Positions 965 through 25,475 of a stretch of DNA of 35,928 nt are shown here, piece by piece. A program made the position numbers and the translations under genes. The DNA is from Paludibacteraceae bacterium (GTDB taxonomy: Bacteria > Bacteroidota > Bacteroidia > Bacteroidales > Paludibacteraceae). The notes under the pieces were generated by a model. It was not told the DNA's origin. It searched no databases and saw only the letters and a list, made by a program, of their open reading frames with translations. How positions within the stretch are numbered: the first letter of the stretch is position 1; each line of letters starts with the position of its first letter. The DNA lies in the NCBI GenBank assembly GCA_017649925.1, contig JAGCFX010000040.1, positions 1 to 35,928 of the forward strand, in the 5' to 3' direction.

Positions 965-985
965 CGTGCATAGTGGCGCACGCTA
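962..985. terminator. Palindrome joining two convergent stop codons
   Basis: TAGCGTGC (962-969) and GCACGCTA (978-985) form a perfect 8-bp stem with an 8-base loop. The TAG of the plus-strand gene (962-964) starts one arm and the TAG of the minus-strand gene (983-985) starts the other. There is no T-run on either side, so it is at best a weak bidirectional terminator. Confidence 0.5.
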
Positions 986-1945
986 CTCCAGACTATTGAT
1001 ATCGACGAGTTTGTTGACGATGGCATAGATCGTCAGGCCCGCTGTAGAATGGATGTTGAGTTTGCGGGCGATGTTCTTGCGATGCGAGATGACGGTATGC
1101 GTGGAGATACAGAGCACATCGGCTATCTCCTTATTACTCAATCCGCGTACCACTTGCACCAGCACATCCTTCTCGCGGTCGGAGAGTTCTTCGGTCTCCG
1201 GTAACTGATGACGACGCGCGTGCTGCGGTTGAATCCTTGTAAGCGCCGGCCGCAGGATATCGTCCTCTATCGCGCAATGGTCCGCGAAATCCTGCTCCGT
1301 ATGCCAGAGATCGGACATAACACTTATCAAAAGATAAGTGATGGGTGATTGGTGATCGGTTATTGGTGATTGGTGATCGGTTATTGGTGATTGGTGATCG
1401 GTTATTGGCGACGGATAGTACTTAATGATGAGGTTTTTGATTTCCGTCAGTTTGTCCGTTATACGCTCATCGTCATGCTCATGCTCGTCAAACAGGCCCT
1501 CATTCTCATGCTCGATATGGATATGAATCTCTTCGGTGAACTCATCATAACAGCGCAGTATGAGTCCCGGAATCTTCGTCGTCGGATCAGCCGGGATAAT
1601 GGCCTCGATGAGTGCTCTTCTCAATCGCGGCAAACGGAAATCGAGGAAATAGGTATGCGCATTCTTCAGATACTGCTGCAAGGTAGGAAGGTCGATATCC
1701 TCGGGTATCGCACGCTGGTGGAACACCTTATAATTGACAACGGCAAGGAACGTAGGCGTATGTACGCCATACGCCTCACATACTTGCTCAATAGTCTGCT
1801 CCCCGACGCCCATCTCCAGTCCGAAACGGCTGATGATCTGAATGGCATCTTCCTCATGCGCCATCAGGTCGCATATCTTATCCGTGGCTCTATACATCAT
1901 CGTAGCATCGAAATCGGCCGCAAAGATACTATATTTTTTTGACAT
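983..1945 (-). CDS. LuxR-type transcriptional regulator with an N-terminal RIC/hemerythrin-like domain
   Basis: I place the start at the ATG at 1945, giving 320 residues; a TTG 18 bases upstream is also open. Residues ~90-240 resemble the di-iron hemerythrin domain of RIC/ScdA (YtfE) proteins. H97 begins one helix, the segment around HIHIEHENEGLF (141-152) provides His and Glu, and DFADHCAIEDDILRP (219-233) matches the last metal-binding helix. Residues ~253-310 are a LuxR/NarL helix-turn-helix (LSDREKDVL, then GLSNKEIADVL). No phosphoacceptor receiver is seen. The inference is a regulator whose iron site senses NO, oxygen or iron status. It is the last gene of the redox operon, so it may control that operon. 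A 63-bp heptamer tract adds 21 residues between helices of the sensor domain. Confidence 0.8.
   Translation of the reverse strand: MSKKYSIFAADFDATMMYRATDKICDLMAHEEDAIQIISRFGLEMGVGEQTIEQVCEAYGVHTPTFLAVVNYKVFHQRAIPEDIDLPTLQQYLKNAHTYFLDFRLPRLRRALIEAIIPADPTTKIPGLILRCYDEFTEEIHIHIEHENEGLFDEHEHDDERITDKLTEIKNLIIKYYPSPITDHQSPITDHQSPITDHQSPITYLLISVMSDLWHTEQDFADHCAIEDDILRPALTRIQPQHARRHQLPETEELSDREKDVLVQVVRGLSNKEIADVLCISTHTVISHRKNIARKLNIHSTAGLTIYAIVNKLVDINSLE
1321..1340. repeat. Perfect 8-bp inverted repeat beside heptamer tract A
   Basis: CACTTATC (1321-1328), AAAA, GATAAGTG (1333-1340). It lies inside the regulator gene and 3 bases from the start of the heptamer array, on the side that encodes ITYLLIS. 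It may be part of the inserted material or a structure that helped the expansion; nothing else is known. Confidence 0.45.
1344..1406 (-). repeat. Heptanucleotide tract A: nine heptamers in three 21-bp units
   Basis: On the plus strand the order GGTGATT, GGTGATC, GGTTATT repeats three times without interruption, 63 bp in all. On the sense (minus) strand it encodes three turns of SPITDHQ inside the hemerythrin-like domain. The variant AATAACC would give TAA in one frame, but its place as every third heptamer keeps it always in the same harmless codon phase. Confidence 0.9.
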
Positions 1946-1946
1946 G

Positions 1947-1962
1947 TGCAAATAAATTTGCA
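1947..1962. promoter_or_regulatory. Palindrome immediately upstream of the regulator ATG
   Basis: TGCAAAT, AA, ATTTGCA is a perfect inverted repeat with 7-bp arms, ending 2 bases before the ATG codon (1943-1945) of the hemerythrin-LuxR gene. A -7-like octamer on the minus strand (TAAATTTG, 1968-1961) overlaps it, but no -33 TTTG lies 20 bases upstream. It may be an operator for a separate promoter of the regulator, or a translational hairpin. Confidence 0.4.
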
Positions 1963-1965
1963 AAT

Positions 1966-3060
1966 TTATGCGTACGAATGCAAGCCTCCGAGGAGGTACG
2001 AAACGCCAAAATAGGTGAACAATACAAAGAAGAAAGCAACTATGCTAAGTATATGGTAGTAAATTTGAAATTTTACATCTGAGATTTTACATTTATTCTT
2101 CAGCCAGGGGAAGTGAAGCAGGAGGGCATAGACGAGCATGGTGATGAGTGCCCATGTTTCTTTCGGGTCCCATCCCCAATAACGTCCCCAGCTCATGTTC
2201 GCCCAGACGGCACCGATGAAGATACCGGCAGTGAGGCAGAAAAGCGCAGGGTAAAGCAAAACAGCCGAAAGCTGAAAGACAGTAGTCGAAAGCCGCTTGC
2301 TGCACAGGCCCACGATGCCGTTGATGGCGATGATGGCAAAGAGCGTGTACGCCAACATAATGACGGACACATGGATTCCGAGCAAAGGCGTCTGCAGAAC
2401 CGGCTGCAGTGGAGGTTTAGGAGTGACGACGTGCGTCATTACTATCGCCAATAGGATGGCGATGACCGCTAACGCTGCAAGACCGCTACGCTGACCGAAT
2501 ACAGATTTTTTCAGCAACACGCGGAAGCGGGTGTTTTTCTGAAAGAAGAATCCGATCATTCCAGCTAATAGCAGTGCATAGCCGGTGTACGTGATTCCGC
2601 TGCCCCACGGATCGTAGTTATAGGCTAGCACCACACCCGCTTGGTCGCTGTCATAGTCTGACTGGCAGAAACGCCAGCCGTGGTACTTCAGCGGCTTGTT
2701 CATCCGCACGATGCCTTCATCCACCGTGATTGCTGATTGCTGATTGATGATTGATGATTGACTTCTGTCCAACAGGCGCAGCTCAGAGATAAAATCCACG
2801 GGATTGCCGTCAGCATCATTGATAATGCGGAAATCCCAGAGGAAAAGGGTGATTTTGGATTGGTGATGGGTAATTGGTGATTGGTGATTGGTAATTGGTG
2901 ATTGGTAATTGAGCGTTTCCGCTTGGTCGGCGCGGAGGTGTATGTCGCCTTGTACGCCGAAGAAATGCGTCACACATGCCCCGACGAGGATGACCGCCAG
3001 GGCAATGTGCAACAGCCACGTAGCCGGCTTAAATCGCATTGATGAAAGCAACCACCGCAT
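1966..3060 (-). CDS. ccsA: Cytochrome c biogenesis protein, compact ResB-like/CcsA fusion
   Basis: This is a system II cytochrome c assembly protein, which delivers heme to CXXCH apocytochromes outside the inner membrane. The N-terminus is a shortened ResB: a membrane helix (residues ~13-36), an extracytoplasmic region with LWDFRI and VDFISELRLLD, and a second helix after YNYDPWGSG. The C-terminal two thirds is CcsA, with the tryptophan-rich heme motif WGRYWGWDPKETW (291-303) and conserved His at 230 and in LGGLHSYA (361). The start at 3060 overlaps the oxidoreductase gene by 32 bases; the ATG at 3039 would overlap by 11 and is also plausible. Three repeat insertions sit in this gene: two heptamer tracts in the ResB domain and one 14-bp duplication in a late loop. 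It probably matures the di-heme protein encoded just upstream. Confidence 0.88.
   Translation of the reverse strand: MRWLLSSMRFKPATWLLHIALAVILVGACVTHFFGVQGDIHLRADQAETLNYQSPITNHQSPITHHQSKITLFLWDFRIINDADGNPVDFISELRLLDRSQSSIINQQSAITVDEGIVRMNKPLKYHGWRFCQSDYDSDQAGVVLAYNYDPWGSGITYTGYALLLAGMIGFFFQKNTRFRVLLKKSVFGQRSGLAALAVIAILLAIVMTHVVTPKPPLQPVLQTPLLGIHVSVIMLAYTLFAIIAINGIVGLCSKRLSTTVFQLSAVLLYPALFCLTAGIFIGAVWANMSWGRYWGWDPKETWALITMLVYALLLHFPWLKNKCKISDVKFQIYYHILSIVAFFFVLFTYFGVSYLLGGLHSYA
2065..2092 (-). repeat. 14-bp tandem duplication inside the CcsA region
   Basis: TTGAAATTTTACAT (2065-2078) is followed directly by CTGAGATTTTACAT (2079-2092), identical at 12 of 14 positions. On the sense strand it encodes CKISDVKFQI, in the loop between the WWD segment and the last membrane helix. 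The polar text is unlike the surrounding membrane protein. The length is twice seven, but the sequence is unrelated to the GGTGATT family. Confidence 0.65.
2728..2762 (-). repeat. Heptanucleotide tract B: five diverged heptamers
   Basis: The plus strand reads GATTGCT twice, GATTGAT twice, then GATTGAC. The sense strand encodes SQSSIINQQSAIT in the ResB-like domain, between RLLD and VDEGIVRMNKPL, where ResB proteins have a variable turn. It is a sequence relative of the GGTGATT tracts rather than an exact copy. Confidence 0.75.
2848..2910 (-). repeat. Heptanucleotide tract C: nine heptamers
   Basis: Units on the plus strand are GGTGATT, TTGGATT, GGTGATG, GGTAATT, GGTGATT, GGTGATT, GGTAATT, GGTGATT and GGTAATT, 63 bp in all. 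The sense strand encodes NYQSPITNHQSPITHHQSKI, just before the first strand of the ResB-like extracytoplasmic domain. Its length equals that of tract A. Confidence 0.9.
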
Positions 3061-4639
3061 CTCTGTCTTCCTTATTCAGTTTGTAGAACTGTTGTGTTGG
3101 CCAATAAGCGTCCGACTGATTGCTATAACCATGCCACATGATAGCTTCGATGACGTTGCGTGCGCGGGTGTCGTGCATACGTGCCTCGTATTGGTCACCG
3201 GTTGCTTTCTTATGCAATCCGCGTCCCCAGAGCGGCGTGGTACGGCACCAACCGGTACGGATATCATTCTCCATGCAGAGCTTATGCTGGATCATGTCGG
3301 TATACGGCCATATCTTCTGGTTCGGATAACGCGGCATAGCAGCCGTGAAGCCTTTGAAGTTATTCGGGTCACGTACCTCATCCGGTCCGGTAGTCCATGT
3401 AGGACGGTGACAGTAGTCGCAGCCGATTTGCGTGAACAGTTCCTTGCCTTTGAGCACTTGCGGGTCATCCACGTTACGGGCAGCCGGGACAGCCAAGCCG
3501 CGATGCCAGATCATGACTTGCGTGAACTCGTCATCACTCATCTCTGCGGGCAACGTGTTGCTCTCCAGATATGCCCTTATCTCTTCCTGCGTACCGAAAG
3601 CCGCCTGCACTTCCGGATCTTTAGAAGCGTACTCCGCATAGATAGACGTACCTTCCTGACCTGTTTTGTACGCCAAGTCGAGGTAGTGATACGGCCTGTC
3701 AGAACGGGTCACATTAGTGATATTCCAGATAGCGTTTGCACCTGCGCCGTCCATCAACGGACCACGTGTGAGGGCATACGTGAAGCGCTTCGGTCCCCAC
3801 TGCGGGTCGTTCTTGTAATAGCCGGAAGTCTGGAAACTACCATTCCAGAAAGCAGGGTTGAGACCGTTCTTCAGTTTGTTATCCGTTGCTTCTTTCTCAT
3901 ACTGAGCGATGATATCCGCATCAGCGATGGCATCGAGCAGACCGGAACCGTACACGCCGATCGTGTTCTCCAGTTTGACTTCGTATCCTTGGCTCTCGAG
4001 CAGACCATCCGGATCGCGATAGCCTTGATTATAGACATAAACAGCGGTGTTCGGCATCTTCACTTCGGGGTAACGCAGTTCATACGTCTCGCCGTCTGCG
4101 AACTTATTGCCATGCTCGTCAGTAGCGGTTTTCCATGTAACCGTGATCTGACTCGGGTCGAGCGGTGCTTTGAAAGGCTCCGCGCCGAAGAGTTGCGGCA
4201 TACCTGCGAGCCAAGGCACATAGCCTTGTGTAGCAGGGTTGATAACTACCAGCAGCGTTCCGTTTCCTACGTTCGCCGCATCGTATGTACCGGCAGGCAC
4301 AGAAGTACCATGCGAGTAATTCGGGTGGCAATGCTGGCAGGAAGCACGCACATAGACAGGACCCAAGCCATGCTGACGACCTTCGGTATTGGTGACGAAG
4401 GGTTTCTCTGCGATCTGGTCGCCTTGGGCGAACTTCGTTTCCAGACCTGCGTTCTCCGTAGCCGGTGTCGGCTGACGGAAAGTCATAGACGTGAGGTTGG
4501 TAGTCGTACCTAACTTACCACCGGTGTAATACCAGTCCGGCAAATCGGTCTCCGGGTCAGGATTAGGCGTTTGTTTGCAACCTGTTACGAGTACTCCGAT
4601 TAATCCGAGTATTCCGATAAATAAAAAACTCTTTCTCAT
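3029..4639 (-). CDS. Di-heme oxidoreductase (DHOR family) lipoprotein
   Basis: The 536-residue protein matches the DHOR family of predicted thiol oxidoreductases/peroxidases (COG3488). The signal peptide ends in a lipobox with Cys21 (VLVTGC), so it is a lipoprotein at an outer or periplasmic face. Two c-type heme sites are present: CQHCH (101-105) and CDYCH (407-411). The second lies in a typical cytochrome c fold start (KGKELFTQIGCDYCHRP). In other bacteria DHOR genes sit beside imelysin genes in iron-regulated clusters; here the imelysin gene ends 1 base upstream of this start. The cytochrome assembly gene overlaps its 3' end. The substrate is unknown; iron, heme or thiol oxidation are the options family knowledge offers. 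Confidence 0.9.
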   Translation of the reverse strand: MRKSFLFIGILGLIGVLVTGCKQTPNPDPETDLPDWYYTGGKLGTTTNLTSMTFRQPTPATENAGLETKFAQGDQIAEKPFVTNTEGRQHGLGPVYVRASCQHCHPNYSHGTSVPAGTYDAANVGNGTLLVVINPATQGYVPWLAGMPQLFGAEPFKAPLDPSQITVTWKTATDEHGNKFADGETYELRYPEVKMPNTAVYVYNQGYRDPDGLLESQGYEVKLENTIGVYGSGLLDAIADADIIAQYEKEATDNKLKNGLNPAFWNGSFQTSGYYKNDPQWGPKRFTYALTRGPLMDGAGANAIWNITNVTRSDRPYHYLDLAYKTGQEGTSIYAEYASKDPEVQAAFGTQEEIRAYLESNTLPAEMSDDEFTQVMIWHRGLAVPAARNVDDPQVLKGKELFTQIGCDYCHRPTWTTGPDEVRDPNNFKGFTAAMPRYPNQKIWPYTDMIQHKLCMENDIRTGWCRTTPLWGRGLHKKATGDQYEARMHDTRARNVIEAIMWHGYSNQSDAYWPTQQFYKLNKEDRDAVVAFINAI

Positions 4640-4640
4640 A

Positions 4641-5816
4641 TTATTTGCTCAATAAAGGTAACACTTCTTTGTCCAAGATGCGCTCCAGTTCAGAAACCTT
4701 ATCCATAGCCGCTTTGACGGCAGGATTGTTTTTGGCGGTATTCTCGAAGTCCTGAATAGCCTCAATGGCCGCGATGGACTCCTCAATCGCCTTGCGCACG
4801 TCGGCGTCAAGGTCTTGATCCTGGCTCTTAACATAGTCCGACACGCTTGCATCGCCGGCTTTGCCGCCGCAGTAAGCATGCTGGATAGAACGGATGTTAT
4901 CCGCGAAATCGATGGTAGACGTGCAGCTGTACGGGCTCTCAATATAATCGCGTTCCTCGGCGCTACTGCTCAGGTAAGGATTGCCCAGTTTGAGGTCTGC
5001 CACTTCTCCGGCGATATCCACGCAACCGGCTACTATCTCTTCTGCTACAGACTGGAAGGTAACGAAAGTTGAACCGGCTTTACCGGCGTTGATCATCTGT
5101 GCGCCATAGTTGTCTTCCCACGGCTCAATGTCGCCGTCCTCCAGCACTTTCATCTTCGCGTCGCTGATGTCACCGGACCATGCAAACTCGAGGATACAAG
5201 CCTGCTCCACGAGGTCAGTGATGACACCTAACAGATAGATGGACTGCGCTTTGGTGAGGTTAGCCGCGTGCGGTTTTCCGGTGCCGACAGGACGACCGTC
5301 TTTCATCTCCGACTCAAAAAGCAGGTACTCGCAAGCATGGAAACCCTGGAGCGCATAGCCGAGGTTGTTACGCACGTAGTCCACACCGTTCTCCTCGATG
5401 TCTTGCATCTGCGCCACATTGTTGAGCAGCGAGTTCATCGCATTGAAATCCAAAGGCCAGGAGTCGATGTGCGGGTCGATGGCATGGGTGTTCACAGGAC
5501 CAAAGAGGAACGCTTCGCTTTGCTCCCAATGCTTACGCATGGCGCGCCAGTGAGTGTCCGCTTCTTTCATCGTCTGCGTGTAGTCCGTACCCTTGTCCAC
5601 GGCCTCTGCAATCTGTTGGGCACTCGCCAGCAGTTTGAGTCCTTGGTCCGCCATCGCGCTGTAAGTCGCAATGACCGTGTTGTTCACATACGGTGCCGCA
5701 ATCTTCTGCAGCGCCGCTTCCTTGTCGGTGGTCACTTCCGTACCACCTGTCTTACATGACGCCATGGCCAGTACAACCAGTGCCATCATCAAAAATGGAA
5801 ATTTTCTCATAAACAT
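4641..5816 (-). CDS. Imelysin-family (peptidase M75-like) lipoprotein
   Basis: The 391-residue protein begins with a lipoprotein signal whose lipobox ends at Cys21 (LAMASC). It carries the imelysin GxHxxE motif as GFHACE (158-163). The body is mostly helical, as expected for the paired four-helix bundles of imelysin and EfeO/Algp7 proteins. Family members are iron-regulated and probably bind metal; peptidase activity is doubtful for the family. The first ATG is at 5816 and a second (MRKFPF) lies 6 bases later; both give the same signal peptide. It is 18 bases after the porin-like gene and 1 base before the di-heme gene, so it is co-transcribed with both. Confidence 0.92.
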   Translation of the reverse strand: MFMRKFPFLMMALVVLAMASCKTGGTEVTTDKEAALQKIAAPYVNNTVIATYSAMADQGLKLLASAQQIAEAVDKGTDYTQTMKEADTHWRAMRKHWEQSEAFLFGPVNTHAIDPHIDSWPLDFNAMNSLLNNVAQMQDIEENGVDYVRNNLGYALQGFHACEYLLFESEMKDGRPVGTGKPHAANLTKAQSIYLLGVITDLVEQACILEFAWSGDISDAKMKVLEDGDIEPWEDNYGAQMINAGKAGSTFVTFQSVAEEIVAGCVDIAGEVADLKLGNPYLSSSAEERDYIESPYSCTSTIDFADNIRSIQHAYCGGKAGDASVSDYVKSQDQDLDADVRKAIEESIAAIEAIQDFENTAKNNPAVKAAMDKVSELERILDKEVLPLLSK

Positions 5817-5834
5817 ATCTATTTAGTTTGTTTG

Positions 5835-7337
5835 TTAAAGTTCATAAAATCCTGCATAGACAATGCCGATAGCCAGTTGCGGTTCGTCATTGTAAATCTT
5901 CCCGCGCGTGCCGTCCGCGCGCGTACCTTGTTTTAATATACCGTACGAAAACTCGGCTTTGACGCCTATCTGCGGTATCGGGAAATAATTGATACCCACG
6001 GCTGCACGATGCCGTCCGCACCATGCATACATGTCCGTCGGCTTGTTATCATACCGGAACATGGAATCGTAGTAATCGTAGCGAGCAAAAATATAAAATT
6101 TTTGATTGGTAATTGGTGATTGGTGATTGGTGATTTTTGCAAGCGAGAAAAAGTCATAGCCGACTTCCATACCTGCGGCGAGGGCATCGGATGCAACCCA
6201 TTGTTTGCTGGAAACCGAGCCTTTGCGCATAGAGATATTATATTGCGTGATAGCCGCAGCATCGCTAAGGTGACCGTACATAAAACTGCCGCGCAGCACG
6301 AGTCCGTAGTCCTTGTAGGCAAAGTCAAACGCCCCGATAGAGACCGTTCCTTTGACATCCTTGTAAGCACTCTCGTCCAGTTCGGCGTTCGTCTTACTGA
6401 GCGTGTTGCGGAACGAGTTACCGCAGTAGCCGGAGAGGGACAGACGCAAGCCTTGTACGCCTGTGTAGTCTACGCGTGCAGCACCTGCGAACACGTTCGC
6501 TAACTTGAATTCATACGGACTGCCTGCGCCCGGTTTCACCCAGTTCTTACGGTTAAAACGGTCACTATCCAGACCCGGCAGAAACATCGCCTGATAATGC
6601 CAGCCGCTCTCGGTCGACCCCATCAGCGTGAGTGCCACCTCATGCCATGTAGACGGAATAATAGTGAATTCTCCTTCGTTACGATAGACACCGAAATACT
6701 CGGTCGGTTCATGATGGGCGTTGAGTCCGCCGACGGGAATCACTTGCATACCTGCACGGAGGATAGCATAGCGGTTGAACTCTTTCTGCAGCCAGAACTG
6801 CTCAAGCGCCACTTCGCCGCCGCGCTCTATCTCTCCTTCATATTCGCCGCCTTCCTCTTCCTCTATCTCAATAGCCGATTCCGTACCGCCGTGCTCAAAC
6901 TCAATCTCCGTACCGACAGACCAGCCTTTGCCGAAGTCGTAGCCCAGATAGATGACCACGTGCGGCAGATCGAACTCACCGTAATGGTCGTTCGCATATT
7001 TCTCGGGATTTTTGCCGTAACGGAGATAATTGTTGGAATAGAAACAATGCTTGGCTGTCACCTCGCCATACCCGCCAATACGGAACTTACCGCGTTGGTA
7101 TTTCTGTTTTACTCGCGTTGTATCGGGTTGGATAGTATCTTTCGGAATTTGTCTTGAAGCACCTGTAACGCCATCCGTATATCCCAATTTATTGGGATTG
7201 TCGGATTTCTGCTCCAAACGTTCGATACGCTCAATCAGCGACTGCAGGTCTGCTGCACTCACCTTAACACTATCCTGCGCATGCATACCTAATGCGCACG
7301 AAATTAGCAAGATAGAAAAGATTGTTTGTCTATACAT
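5835..7337 (-). CDS. Outer-membrane beta-barrel (porin-like) protein
   Basis: The 500-residue protein has a signal peptide cleaved near HAQDS (residues ~18-22), then a short coiled coil (LQSLIERIERLEQK). After a linker, alternating amphipathic strands with aromatic girdles begin at GKFRIGGYGEV and end with an aromatic/hydrophobic residue pattern (FYEL). This is the layout of Bacteroidales porins related to phosphate-selective porins. A very acidic segment (EIEEEEGGEYEGEIE, around 160) probably lies in an outer loop and could bind cations. Heptamer tract D adds KITNHQSPITNQ between two strands. As first gene of the operon it follows the promoter with two palindromes. The solute is not identifiable; iron or heme is inferred from its neighbours. 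Confidence 0.8.
   Translation of the reverse strand: MYRQTIFSILLISCALGMHAQDSVKVSAADLQSLIERIERLEQKSDNPNKLGYTDGVTGASRQIPKDTIQPDTTRVKQKYQRGKFRIGGYGEVTAKHCFYSNNYLRYGKNPEKYANDHYGEFDLPHVVIYLGYDFGKGWSVGTEIEFEHGGTESAIEIEEEEGGEYEGEIERGGEVALEQFWLQKEFNRYAILRAGMQVIPVGGLNAHHEPTEYFGVYRNEGEFTIIPSTWHEVALTLMGSTESGWHYQAMFLPGLDSDRFNRKNWVKPGAGSPYEFKLANVFAGAARVDYTGVQGLRLSLSGYCGNSFRNTLSKTNAELDESAYKDVKGTVSIGAFDFAYKDYGLVLRGSFMYGHLSDAAAITQYNISMRKGSVSSKQWVASDALAAGMEVGYDFFSLAKITNHQSPITNQKFYIFARYDYYDSMFRYDNKPTDMYAWCGRHRAAVGINYFPIPQIGVKAEFSYGILKQGTRADGTRGKIYNDEPQLAIGIVYAGFYEL
6101..6135 (-). repeat. Heptanucleotide tract D: five heptamers in the porin gene
   Basis: The plus strand reads TTTGATT, GGTAATT, then GGTGATT three times. 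The sense strand encodes KITNHQSPITNQK in a turn between the predicted strands GMEVGYDFFS and KFYIFARYDYY. Confidence 0.9.
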
Positions 7338-13317: not shown

Positions 13318-13349
13318 CAAAGGTACAACAAAAAAACGGAATATGCAAG
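13318..13349 (-). promoter_or_regulatory. Promoter of tRNA-Leu
   Basis: On the minus strand, TACCTTTG (13325-13318) is a perfect -7 box. CTTG (13349-13346), 20 bases upstream, is one mismatch from TTTG. The -33 box overlaps the ATG region of the M16 gene on the other strand. Confidence 0.65.
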
Positions 13350-14605
13350 AAAATACGCAAACTTTTTATCATATTTTGTCAAATGGCGTCAAAATTGTAC
13401 ACCGTTTGACGCCTTCTCCGGTAGCATATGTGGGTGTGATGGTCGGTGCGGGCACGCGCGACGAATCGCCCGAGGAAAACGGGATGGCGCATTATATCGA
13501 ACATTGCGTATTCAAAGGCACGGCACATCATTCTGCGCGACAGATTATCCATGCGATTGAAGGTATCGGCGGCGAGATAAACGCATACACGACCAAAGAA
13601 GAGACGACTTTTTATGCCGCTATTTTGTGCGAACATGTGCAGTTGACGTTACATCTGATTGCGGAAATGCTGACCGCGCCGACGTTCAAAAAAGAGGAAA
13701 CGGACAAGGAGCGGATGGTAATTCTGGATGAAATTGAGAGTTACAACGATACTCCGAGCGAGTTGATTTACGATGATTTTGAGAGTTTGGTTTTTGCAGG
13801 TAACAGTCTGGCTATGCCGATATTAGGCACAAAAAAAACACTCAAACATATTTCCTCAAAACCGGAATTTGCGAAAAACTGGATGACCGCGCATTATCAT
13901 CCGGAACGGATGGTTGTTTTCTGCCAAGGCAATATCAAACCCGAACGGATTTTCAAGTTGGCAGAAAAAGAATTAGGTGGTATACCTCGGATAGATAACA
14001 CTCTCGATAATCTCTCGAAGTTGGCTCGACATCGGCTCGAAGTTGGCTCGACAGCGGTTCGAGAGGCGAGTTACAAAAAACATACGCATCAAGTGCATGC
14101 GATGCTCGGCGGACGGGCATTTGAAATCGGTCACAAGGACCAGGCGGCAATGTTTCTGCTGAACAATATTCTCGGCGGCGGGAGTCTAAACAGCCGTTTG
14201 AACTTGAGTTTGCGGGAATCGAAAGGCTTGGTTTACACTGTGGAGTCCACTTATACTCCGCTGAGCGACACAGGTTATTGGTGCGTTTATTGGGCGTGTG
14301 ACCAGGAAGACTATGAACAAAGTCTAGGATTGGTGCGGCAGGAATTGGACAGACTAAGCACAACGCCTTTATCGGCGAGCGGCTTGCGTCAAGCCCTTCT
14401 GCAGTTACGCGGGCAATTGGCGATAAGTGCGCAAAATCAAGAAAACAGCGCGTTGGCGATGGCAAAATCCATGCTCTACAGAGGCTACGCGCCGAGTTGG
14501 GAAGAGACAATTGCAAAGATTGAGCGAACCGATATTGAACAATTGCAACACGTGGCTCAAGAAGTTTATTCTGCTTCTAACGCTTACATTTTGACATACA
14601 AATAG
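13343..14605 (+). CDS. M16-family zinc metallopeptidase (insulinase-like)
   Basis: The 420-residue protein carries the inverted zinc motif HYIEH (50-54) and the third ligand E130 in ERMVILDEIESYND, at the usual 76-residue distance from H54. The second half (GGGSLNSRLNLSLRESKGLVYTVES) is the typical partner domain that closes the chamber. No signal peptide is seen, so it is probably cytoplasmic. This matches the 'mitochondrial processing peptidase-like' bacterial enzymes, whose substrates are short peptides or unknown. The ATG at 13343 has only a weak ribosome site, and I see no matching promoter on the plus strand. The linker around residues 224-241 contains a 22-bp direct repeat framed by an inverted repeat. 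Confidence 0.9.
   Translation: MQENTQTFYHILSNGVKIVHRLTPSPVAYVGVMVGAGTRDESPEENGMAHYIEHCVFKGTAHHSARQIIHAIEGIGGEINAYTTKEETTFYAAILCEHVQLTLHLIAEMLTAPTFKKEETDKERMVILDEIESYNDTPSELIYDDFESLVFAGNSLAMPILGTKKTLKHISSKPEFAKNWMTAHYHPERMVVFCQGNIKPERIFKLAEKELGGIPRIDNTLDNLSKLARHRLEVGSTAVREASYKKHTHQVHAMLGGRAFEIGHKDQAAMFLLNNILGGGSLNSRLNLSLRESKGLVYTVESTYTPLSDTGYWCVYWACDQEDYEQSLGLVRQELDRLSTTPLSASGLRQALLQLRGQLAISAQNQENSALAMAKSMLYRGYAPSWEETIAKIERTDIEQLQHVAQEVYSASNAYILTYK
14012..14065 (+). repeat. Direct 22-bp repeat inside an 8-bp inverted repeat, within the M16 gene
   Basis: Two 22-bp copies (14014-14035 and 14036-14057) starting CTCGAAGTTGGCTCGACA differ at one base. They are framed by CTCTCGAA (14012-14019) and TTCGAGAG (14058-14065). 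The segment encodes the linker LSKLARHRLEVGSTAVRE between conserved parts of the peptidase, where family members vary in length. Confidence 0.7.
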
Positions 14606-25407: not shown

Positions 25408-25418
25408 ACGAATCACGC

Positions 25419-25475
25419 ATTAATCACACATTAATCACACAATGTTGCCTCTATGCAGCCCTTATTTTTCAAGGG
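25419..25475 (+). repeat. Short tandem repeat and hairpin between mraZ and rsmH
   Basis: ATTAATCACAC occurs twice in tandem (25419-25440). A small hairpin follows, CCCTT (25459-25463) with AAGGG (25471-25475). No promoter of the TAnnTTTG type is visible in this gap, so rsmH is probably read from the mraZ promoter. Confidence 0.4.

Follow-up and report, generated by a model that had tools for sequence, protein, structure and literature searches.

Tandem heptamers that are dispersed through the genome and lie mostly between genes are known from heterocystous cyanobacteria as short tandemly repeated repetitive (STRR) sequences. The present analysis concerns repeats of a similar kind in a Paludibacteraceae bacterium (assembly GCA_017649925.1), in which a 35,928-bp stretch of contig JAGCFX010000040.1 (the window, i.e. 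the whole stretch of DNA that was analyzed) carries four tracts of a GGTGATT-type 7-bp unit, all in frame on the minus strand, within three genes of a five-gene minus-strand run. We found that such tracts occur genome-wide in this host, in frame and on the stop-free strand, that they share their motif within the genome, and that they belong to a background of tandem arrays of 7 bp, and separately of 11 bp, that extends over much of the genus. Comparable repeats have been described. Long simple sequence repeats (LSSRs; Mrazek et al. 2007, as cited in PMC4679880 and PMC4692102) are tandem runs of 5-11-nt units beyond chance; heptamers are the most frequent class in the majority of these genomes, and slippage has been proposed to be tied to a 7-nt polymerase contact. 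Similarly, tandem units exceed chance in our host and heptamers are foremost; however, while units of a multiple of three are said in these sources to be likely in genes, 15 of 20 host heptamer tracts reside in genes. The TAACTGA repeats of Beggiatoaceae, cyanobacteria and five Bacteroidetes (MacGregor 2015, PMC4679880) are likewise dispersed, strain-specific heptamers with stops on one strand and a heptapeptide (LSVISYQ) on the other, and are reported there to differ by 7-nt indels between two close strains. They are mostly intergenic and, within open reading frames (ORFs), mostly located at the ends (PMC4679880), whereas the host tracts are mostly in-gene and often internal. Their unit differs as well, as the host motif is AATCACC-centred, and one AACTGAT tract occurs in a relative (L188). 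The GGGAATC and GGGGA(C/T)T heptamers of Xanthomonas and Nostoc are also dispersed over genes of many functional classes but, unlike the tracts described here, form G-quadruplexes and were studied as intergenic repeats near ORF ends (PMC4692102). The (AAGACTC)n repeat of neuO shares with our tracts that it is an in-frame heptanucleotide repeat whose frame is kept only by multiples of three, but it is described as a long phase-variable array in one contingency gene, in contrast to short, imperfect tracts in many genes (PMC8653822). Thus, heptamer repeats, strand-dependent stops and an occasional heptapeptide reading are already in print (PMC4679880, PMC4692102, PMC8653822). A high in-gene share and motifs that vary from species to species within the same loops were not found described in the open-licence PMC literature, nor were SPITNHQ- and NYQLPIT-type peptide words, and for heptanucleotide tandem repeats in Bacteroidetes only PMC4679880 was found there.

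All four tracts, which had been described in an earlier note made from the sequence alone, were verified in the 36-kb window. The first resides in a LuxR/GerE-type regulator gene (983..1963, minus strand; GerE/LuxR-type HTH by Pfam) and was delimited by Tandem Repeats Finder to 1338..1408 with a period of 7 bp, reading (TDHQSPI)n on the minus strand. The program also scored it as a 21-bp unit with 3.1 copies at 100% (1344-1408), and from 1344 three perfect copies of this 21-bp unit are present (GGTGATTGGTGATCGGTTATT on the plus strand). The adjacent gene for a cytochrome c assembly protein (1966..3060, minus strand; ResB and Cytochrom_C_asm by Pfam) harbors two tracts, both read on the minus strand: one in loop 2 of this ResB/CcsA-like protein (2727..2761), which consists of the variants GCTGATT and GATGATT and reads SQSSIINQQSAIT, and one in loop 1 (2848..2911; 2858-2911 by Tandem Repeats Finder), which reads LNYQSPITNHQSPITHHQS. 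The fourth is located in a loop of a porin-like gene (5835..7337, minus strand) at 6101..6135 (6103-6135 by Tandem Repeats Finder) and reads KITNHQSPITN on the minus strand. Of the gene names proposed earlier, regulator and cytochrome assembly protein were confirmed by Pfam, while the porin, whose name we retain from the earlier reader, gave no Pfam family at E <= 0.001. The tracts exceed chance: 32 two-unit matches with up to three mismatches occur in the window, compared to 10.4 (sd 3.9, largest 20) in 100 dinucleotide-preserving shuffles. As had also been claimed, the window contains no further GGTGATT-type array, but only single two-unit matches with 2-3 mismatches.

What did not hold was the proposed concentration of the family in one operon. 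Three GGTRATT units with up to three mismatches, counted as overlapping positions rather than tracts, were matched 123 times on many contigs of the 1.98-Mb host genome, as opposed to a single match for the reversed control, which rules out an operon-specific family. Among 61 genomes of the genus, 55 contain such matches (range 0-131); counts higher than in the host were obtained for three genus mates (G003 131, G041 128, G034 124). G047 has 7 matches but 121 in the reversed control, which is high in some genomes because these carry other heptamers. At the level of the order, with up to two mismatches, a match was obtained in 40 of 198 sampled genomes, the host being the highest (77) and the next reaching 37. 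Public genome records contain four exact GGTRATT units in at least 119 stretches; 54 among the 80 matches listed are cyanobacterial, with proportions that are unreliable, and the others listed include Bacteroidales, Saprospiraceae, Chloroflexi, WOR-3 and more. The host thus resembles STRR-bearing cyanobacteria in its dispersed tandem heptanucleotides and in the occurrence of the same motif, although its own affiliation is different: the closest named porin-like orthologues are from Bacteroidales/Paludibacteraceae with 78-91% identity. Within the host, 13 of 23 tracts have units centred on AATCACC.

The preference for certain periods was analyzed in 427 kb of host sequence (the window plus 20 stretches) by counting arrays above a set score. 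This yielded 18 arrays at 7 bp, 13 at 11 bp, three at 10 bp and one at 8 bp, none at 4, 5, 6, 9, 12 and 13 bp, and echoes of the 7- and 11-bp counts at multiples of 7 and 11; Markov shuffles (one per sequence) contained no array at any period. As the 20 stretches were picked partly for tract-bearing contigs, tract density is biased upward in this sample, while the contrast between periods should be unaffected. A similar distribution was obtained for 642 kb around the orthologous operon in 40 relatives, with 61 arrays at 7 bp, 15 at 11 bp, nine at 8 bp and four at 9 bp, and none in shuffles. The arrays hence agree with the definition of LSSRs as tandem runs of 1-11-nt units that are longer than chance would produce in the respective genome. 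The genus is not uniform in this respect, as 382 kb of the genus mate G028 (L270-L289) contain no heptamer tract.

With respect to genes, the remaining five of the 20 host heptamer tracts lie at gene edges (two) or between genes (three). The 11-bp arrays of the host are distributed differently, with one of 15 inside a gene and 14 between genes (Fisher P = 9e-5). The in-gene share of the heptamer tracts is slightly below the 90% coding share (P = 0.045) and above that of the other genomes pooled (58/167, P = 0.001), namely 4/34 in G047, 21/47 in G113, 5/19 in G041 and 28/67 in 39 operon relatives. All 15 in-gene host tracts are free of stops in the sense reading, as any in-gene tract must be. 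In G047, the consensus has stops on both strands in 18 of 23 intergenic and six of seven edge tracts, but in none of the four in-gene tracts. A Pfam scan covered ten tract-bearing host ORFs outside the window, eight with tracts that were counted as in-gene and two (L165 7765-8754 and L169 16978-17997) from cruder gene calls. Families were assigned to nine of them and include a PrmC-type methyltransferase, a pseudouridine synthase, the EPSP-synthase family, an MnmA-type tRNA transferase, a sulfatase, DUF4886, MMPL and a nucleotidyl transferase; a bile-acid-symporter-like protein matched just below the cut-off of its Pfam family, and L165 7765-8754 gave no Pfam family. The tract-bearing host genes are thus a mixed set, partly housekeeping, and the spread over gene classes that the earlier note had named as speaking against its view is largely what a whole-genome search reveals. 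The comparison to cyanobacterial STRR sequences, and the remark that residence inside genes is unusual, held up.

As many genus mates possess a conserved copy of the operon, the tract-bearing loops could be compared. None of 37 aligned porin-like orthologues contains the NHQSPIT text, and conserved residues as a normal part of the fold, which the earlier note had named as refuting its view, were thus not observed. At this loop, about 12 tract residues in the host correspond to about 8 linker residues in relatives (codons of nine compared). The loops of the assembly protein were compared with 40 relatives (codons of nine) and the regulator loop with 23 homologues, some from outside the operon; at these positions the relatives have nothing, an ordinary linker, or related or other heptamer text. 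In G113 (L184), AAAGTCG units occupy the porin-like loop and AACCCGT units the regulator loop, and these are the two commonest tract motifs (11/50 and 7/50) of a 319-kb sample of that genome, the locus included. A goat-rumen Paludibacteraceae, RGIG3530 (L334), which was selected for carrying the motif, has it in loop 1 of the assembly protein, exactly 7 residues shorter, whereas its loop 2 and porin-like gene are devoid of the motif. Few orthologues of other host genes were present in the stretches compared: an MnmA-type relative (60% identity) does not have the tract, and in an EPSP-synthase relative (57% identity) the site of the tract is occupied by an equally long stretch of non-repeat text. 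The tracts are thus different or absent in the orthologues compared and, as the earlier note suggested, possibly expanding. Non-heptamer repeat text resembling SLEGRxGGVS was also observed, in both assembly-protein loops of L174 and in loop 1 of L209.

Unlinked tracts share their motif within genomes far more often than between them. Among 187 tracts, the consensus was identical in 10.5% of 1954 unlinked within-genome pairs and in 1.1% of 15303 between-genome pairs, with a mean of 2.3% and a maximum of 4.1% in 1000 permutations. The difference was retained with one tract per 5-kb cluster (101 clusters; 7.8% versus 1.1%, permutation maximum 4.9%), with the host excluded (8.7% versus 0.9%), for intergenic tracts alone (14.6% of 329 within-genome pairs versus 0.5%) and for in-gene tracts alone (16.6% of 325 versus 2.6%). 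As intergenic-only tracts share motifs too, codon selection is ruled out as the sole source of shared motifs. Closer tracts share a motif more often (29% of 58 pairs <1 kb apart). Different genomes of the genus favor different heptamers. Of 205 same-motif pairs, 14 have homologous flanks (300 bp); these belong to G047 and G113, and no host pair is among them, leaving 191 without. Larger dispersed repeats as carriers of the tracts were rejected on these grounds, as was a transposon or miniature inverted-repeat transposable element, of which constant flanks are expected.

We consider it probable that the tracts are heptanucleotide simple sequence repeats of the LSSR/STRR kind that grow by slippage in place at tolerant sites and, in genes, under selection for the frame. 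Starting from a short seed in a loop or linker that tolerates it, replication slippage would add length, preferably in steps of 7 bp, and within genes only changes that keep the frame, i.e. three units or 21 bp, would survive. As 7 and 3 share no common factor, all frames of a heptamer run encode one and the same repeating peptide of seven residues; if the strand is free of stops, the result is a soluble, loop-like stretch (here SPITNHQ), so that the protein need not be destroyed. Near-neutral tolerance of the tracts is taken as the default. The identities at lags of 7, 14 and 21 bp are.877/.844/.873 for in-gene and.893/.889/.877 for intergenic tracts. Lag 21 exceeds the two others in 9/22 in-gene, 1/23 edge and 7/27 intergenic tracts, and perfect 21-bp sub-repeats occur in the regulator tract and in a tract of an uncharacterized 329-aa ORF that was rejected by the codon-score caller. 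The densest 5 kb of the 427 kb is the present operon, with four of 23 tracts (P = 0.038 versus random placement, for a cluster that was picked after the fact), and six pairs of host tracts lie less than 1 kb apart where 1.17 are expected (P = 0.002), indicating that tracts tend to pair in tolerant places. The operon is thus the densest stretch sampled but not outstanding, and the local cluster is weak.

Several points weigh against this interpretation. That unlinked sites share motifs is not accounted for by slippage alone and would require an added step, perhaps genome-biased seeding or an occasional transfer from tract to tract by ectopic copying or template switching. Motif sharing is also not smooth with distance (4.9% at 5-20 kb, 10.8% beyond), and several motifs may be unevenly represented in one genome, as in G041, which has 128 GGTRATT matches, yet a 279-kb sample led by others. 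The 21-bp signal is weak and suggestive only: the excess of tracts with lag 21 best among in-gene tracts (9/22 versus 8/50 of the others) has an uncorrected P = 0.034 at a threshold set by ourselves, and lag 21 is best in only those nine. The exchange of about 8 residues for 12 in the porin-like loop indicates that the tract there replaces ordinary sequence rather than adding to it, and the same-length text of the EPSP-synthase relative likewise shows a replacement instead of an insertion. Finally, the gene calls derive from a home-made codon score (coding fraction 0.90), and the comparison is at the level of species with one genome each, in which a change of length was never caught in progress.

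Some of these points would be accounted for by a spreading element, i.e. an enzyme or template that writes the current heptamer of a genome into new sites by RNA- or DNA-templated copying, with slippage being secondary. Motif sharing at unlinked and mostly non-homologous sites, among intergenic-only and in-gene-only tracts alike, the different motifs that occupy the same loops in different genomes, and the substitution of repeat text for ordinary sequence, both in the porin-like gene and at the EPSP-synthase site, are all consistent with such a process. However, the flanks of same-motif pairs, shared so rarely and never in the host, disclosed no carrier, the host genome gave no reverse-transcriptase match, and PF05635 genes have a single weak host match and a proximity to tracts only modestly above the background of genes; we therefore regard a spreading element as rather doubtful. 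Phase variation, in which changes in unit number switch the three genes on and off as at contingency loci, is still less probable. A heptamer change does shift the frame unless three units are involved, and neuO of E. coli K1, with its (AAGACTC)n array, operates in this way (PMC8653822), but the tracts described here are short, imperfect and situated mid-gene, they occur also in genes of housekeeping type (EPSP synthase family, PrmC type, MnmA type), and all 15 in-gene host tracts are read through in frame. Selection for the SPITNHQ stretches as protein features of this operon, such as functional surface loops or linkers, seems very improbable. Four of them do occur in loops or linkers of one operon, and RGIG3530, though selected for this motif, shares the text of loop 1; the absence of the text from the porin-like orthologues and the unrelated or missing text in relatives, however, mostly refute such a role, and similar text occurs in unrelated enzymes.

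Further candidates were tried and ruled out. Genes of the PF05635 four-helix-bundle family, considered for an association with such tracts, were rejected as the cause: a tract lies within 100 bp of them at 10 of 30 loci (L290-L319), while the share among all genes is 13-23% in four of six samples and, in the other two, 5% (host) and 0% (G028), and PF05635 has one match (1.7e-5) in the host genome and one in 80 named loci searched. Reverse transcriptase is not a requirement, as RVT_1 is without match in the host genome and present in 14 of 61 genus genomes; the same applies to a Y-family polymerase, which is matched in 47 of 61 genomes but neither in the host nor in the tract-rich G047. Loss of mismatch repair was excluded by MutS-domain proteins in 60 of 61 genomes including the host, the sole exception being G018, which is 54% complete. 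The host has two such proteins, one of which we take to be MutS2-like by its length.

The two remaining genes of the five-gene run, located between the tract-bearing ones on the minus strand, encode a di-haem oxidoreductase (3029-4639) and an imelysin (4641-5816), and Tandem Repeats Finder detected no heptamer tract in either. The program did find 9-, 10- and 11-bp arrays in the window, among them a 10-bp array between genes (GAATGACTAA, 313-342) and an 11/22-bp array (14014-14062) within the ORF 13343-14605. The 11-bp arrays form a second period class, e.g. TCGAGCCATTA adjoining CCATAGGATAC, and occur between genes at window 25411-25441 and at L150 695-782, L152 4420-4526, L164 10489-10587 and L167 12840-12928; the heptamer-free G028 sample contains 11-bp arrays as well. 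In the host gene of the EPSP-synthase family (L156 3-1256), four arrays with three periods (7, 7, 10 and 11 bp) were observed. Only two tracts, both in L322, are present in the 77 kb of ten further loci (L320-L329; 5-8 kb each) from other genus mates, in which the match to the assembly protein is weaker and lies in a longer open frame (728-763 aa).

For annotation, these results carry a warning, as the SPITNHQ-like text in these proteins is a DNA-level repeat and not a domain. It may be speculated that the tracts undergo genome-wide concerted evolution, in which a copying process writes the current 7-bp motifs of each genome into permissive loops and intergenic sites. If so, a given loop would be refilled with other text from one sister species to the next, and whether a motif is free of stops would decide if its tracts reside inside or between genes. 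Sister species differ in motif and one is without tracts in the 382 kb sampled, while in tracts within enzymes the frame records the length steps that survived. Thus, the genus provides a natural comparison for the questions of why a 7-bp unit is favored and how one motif fills a genome.

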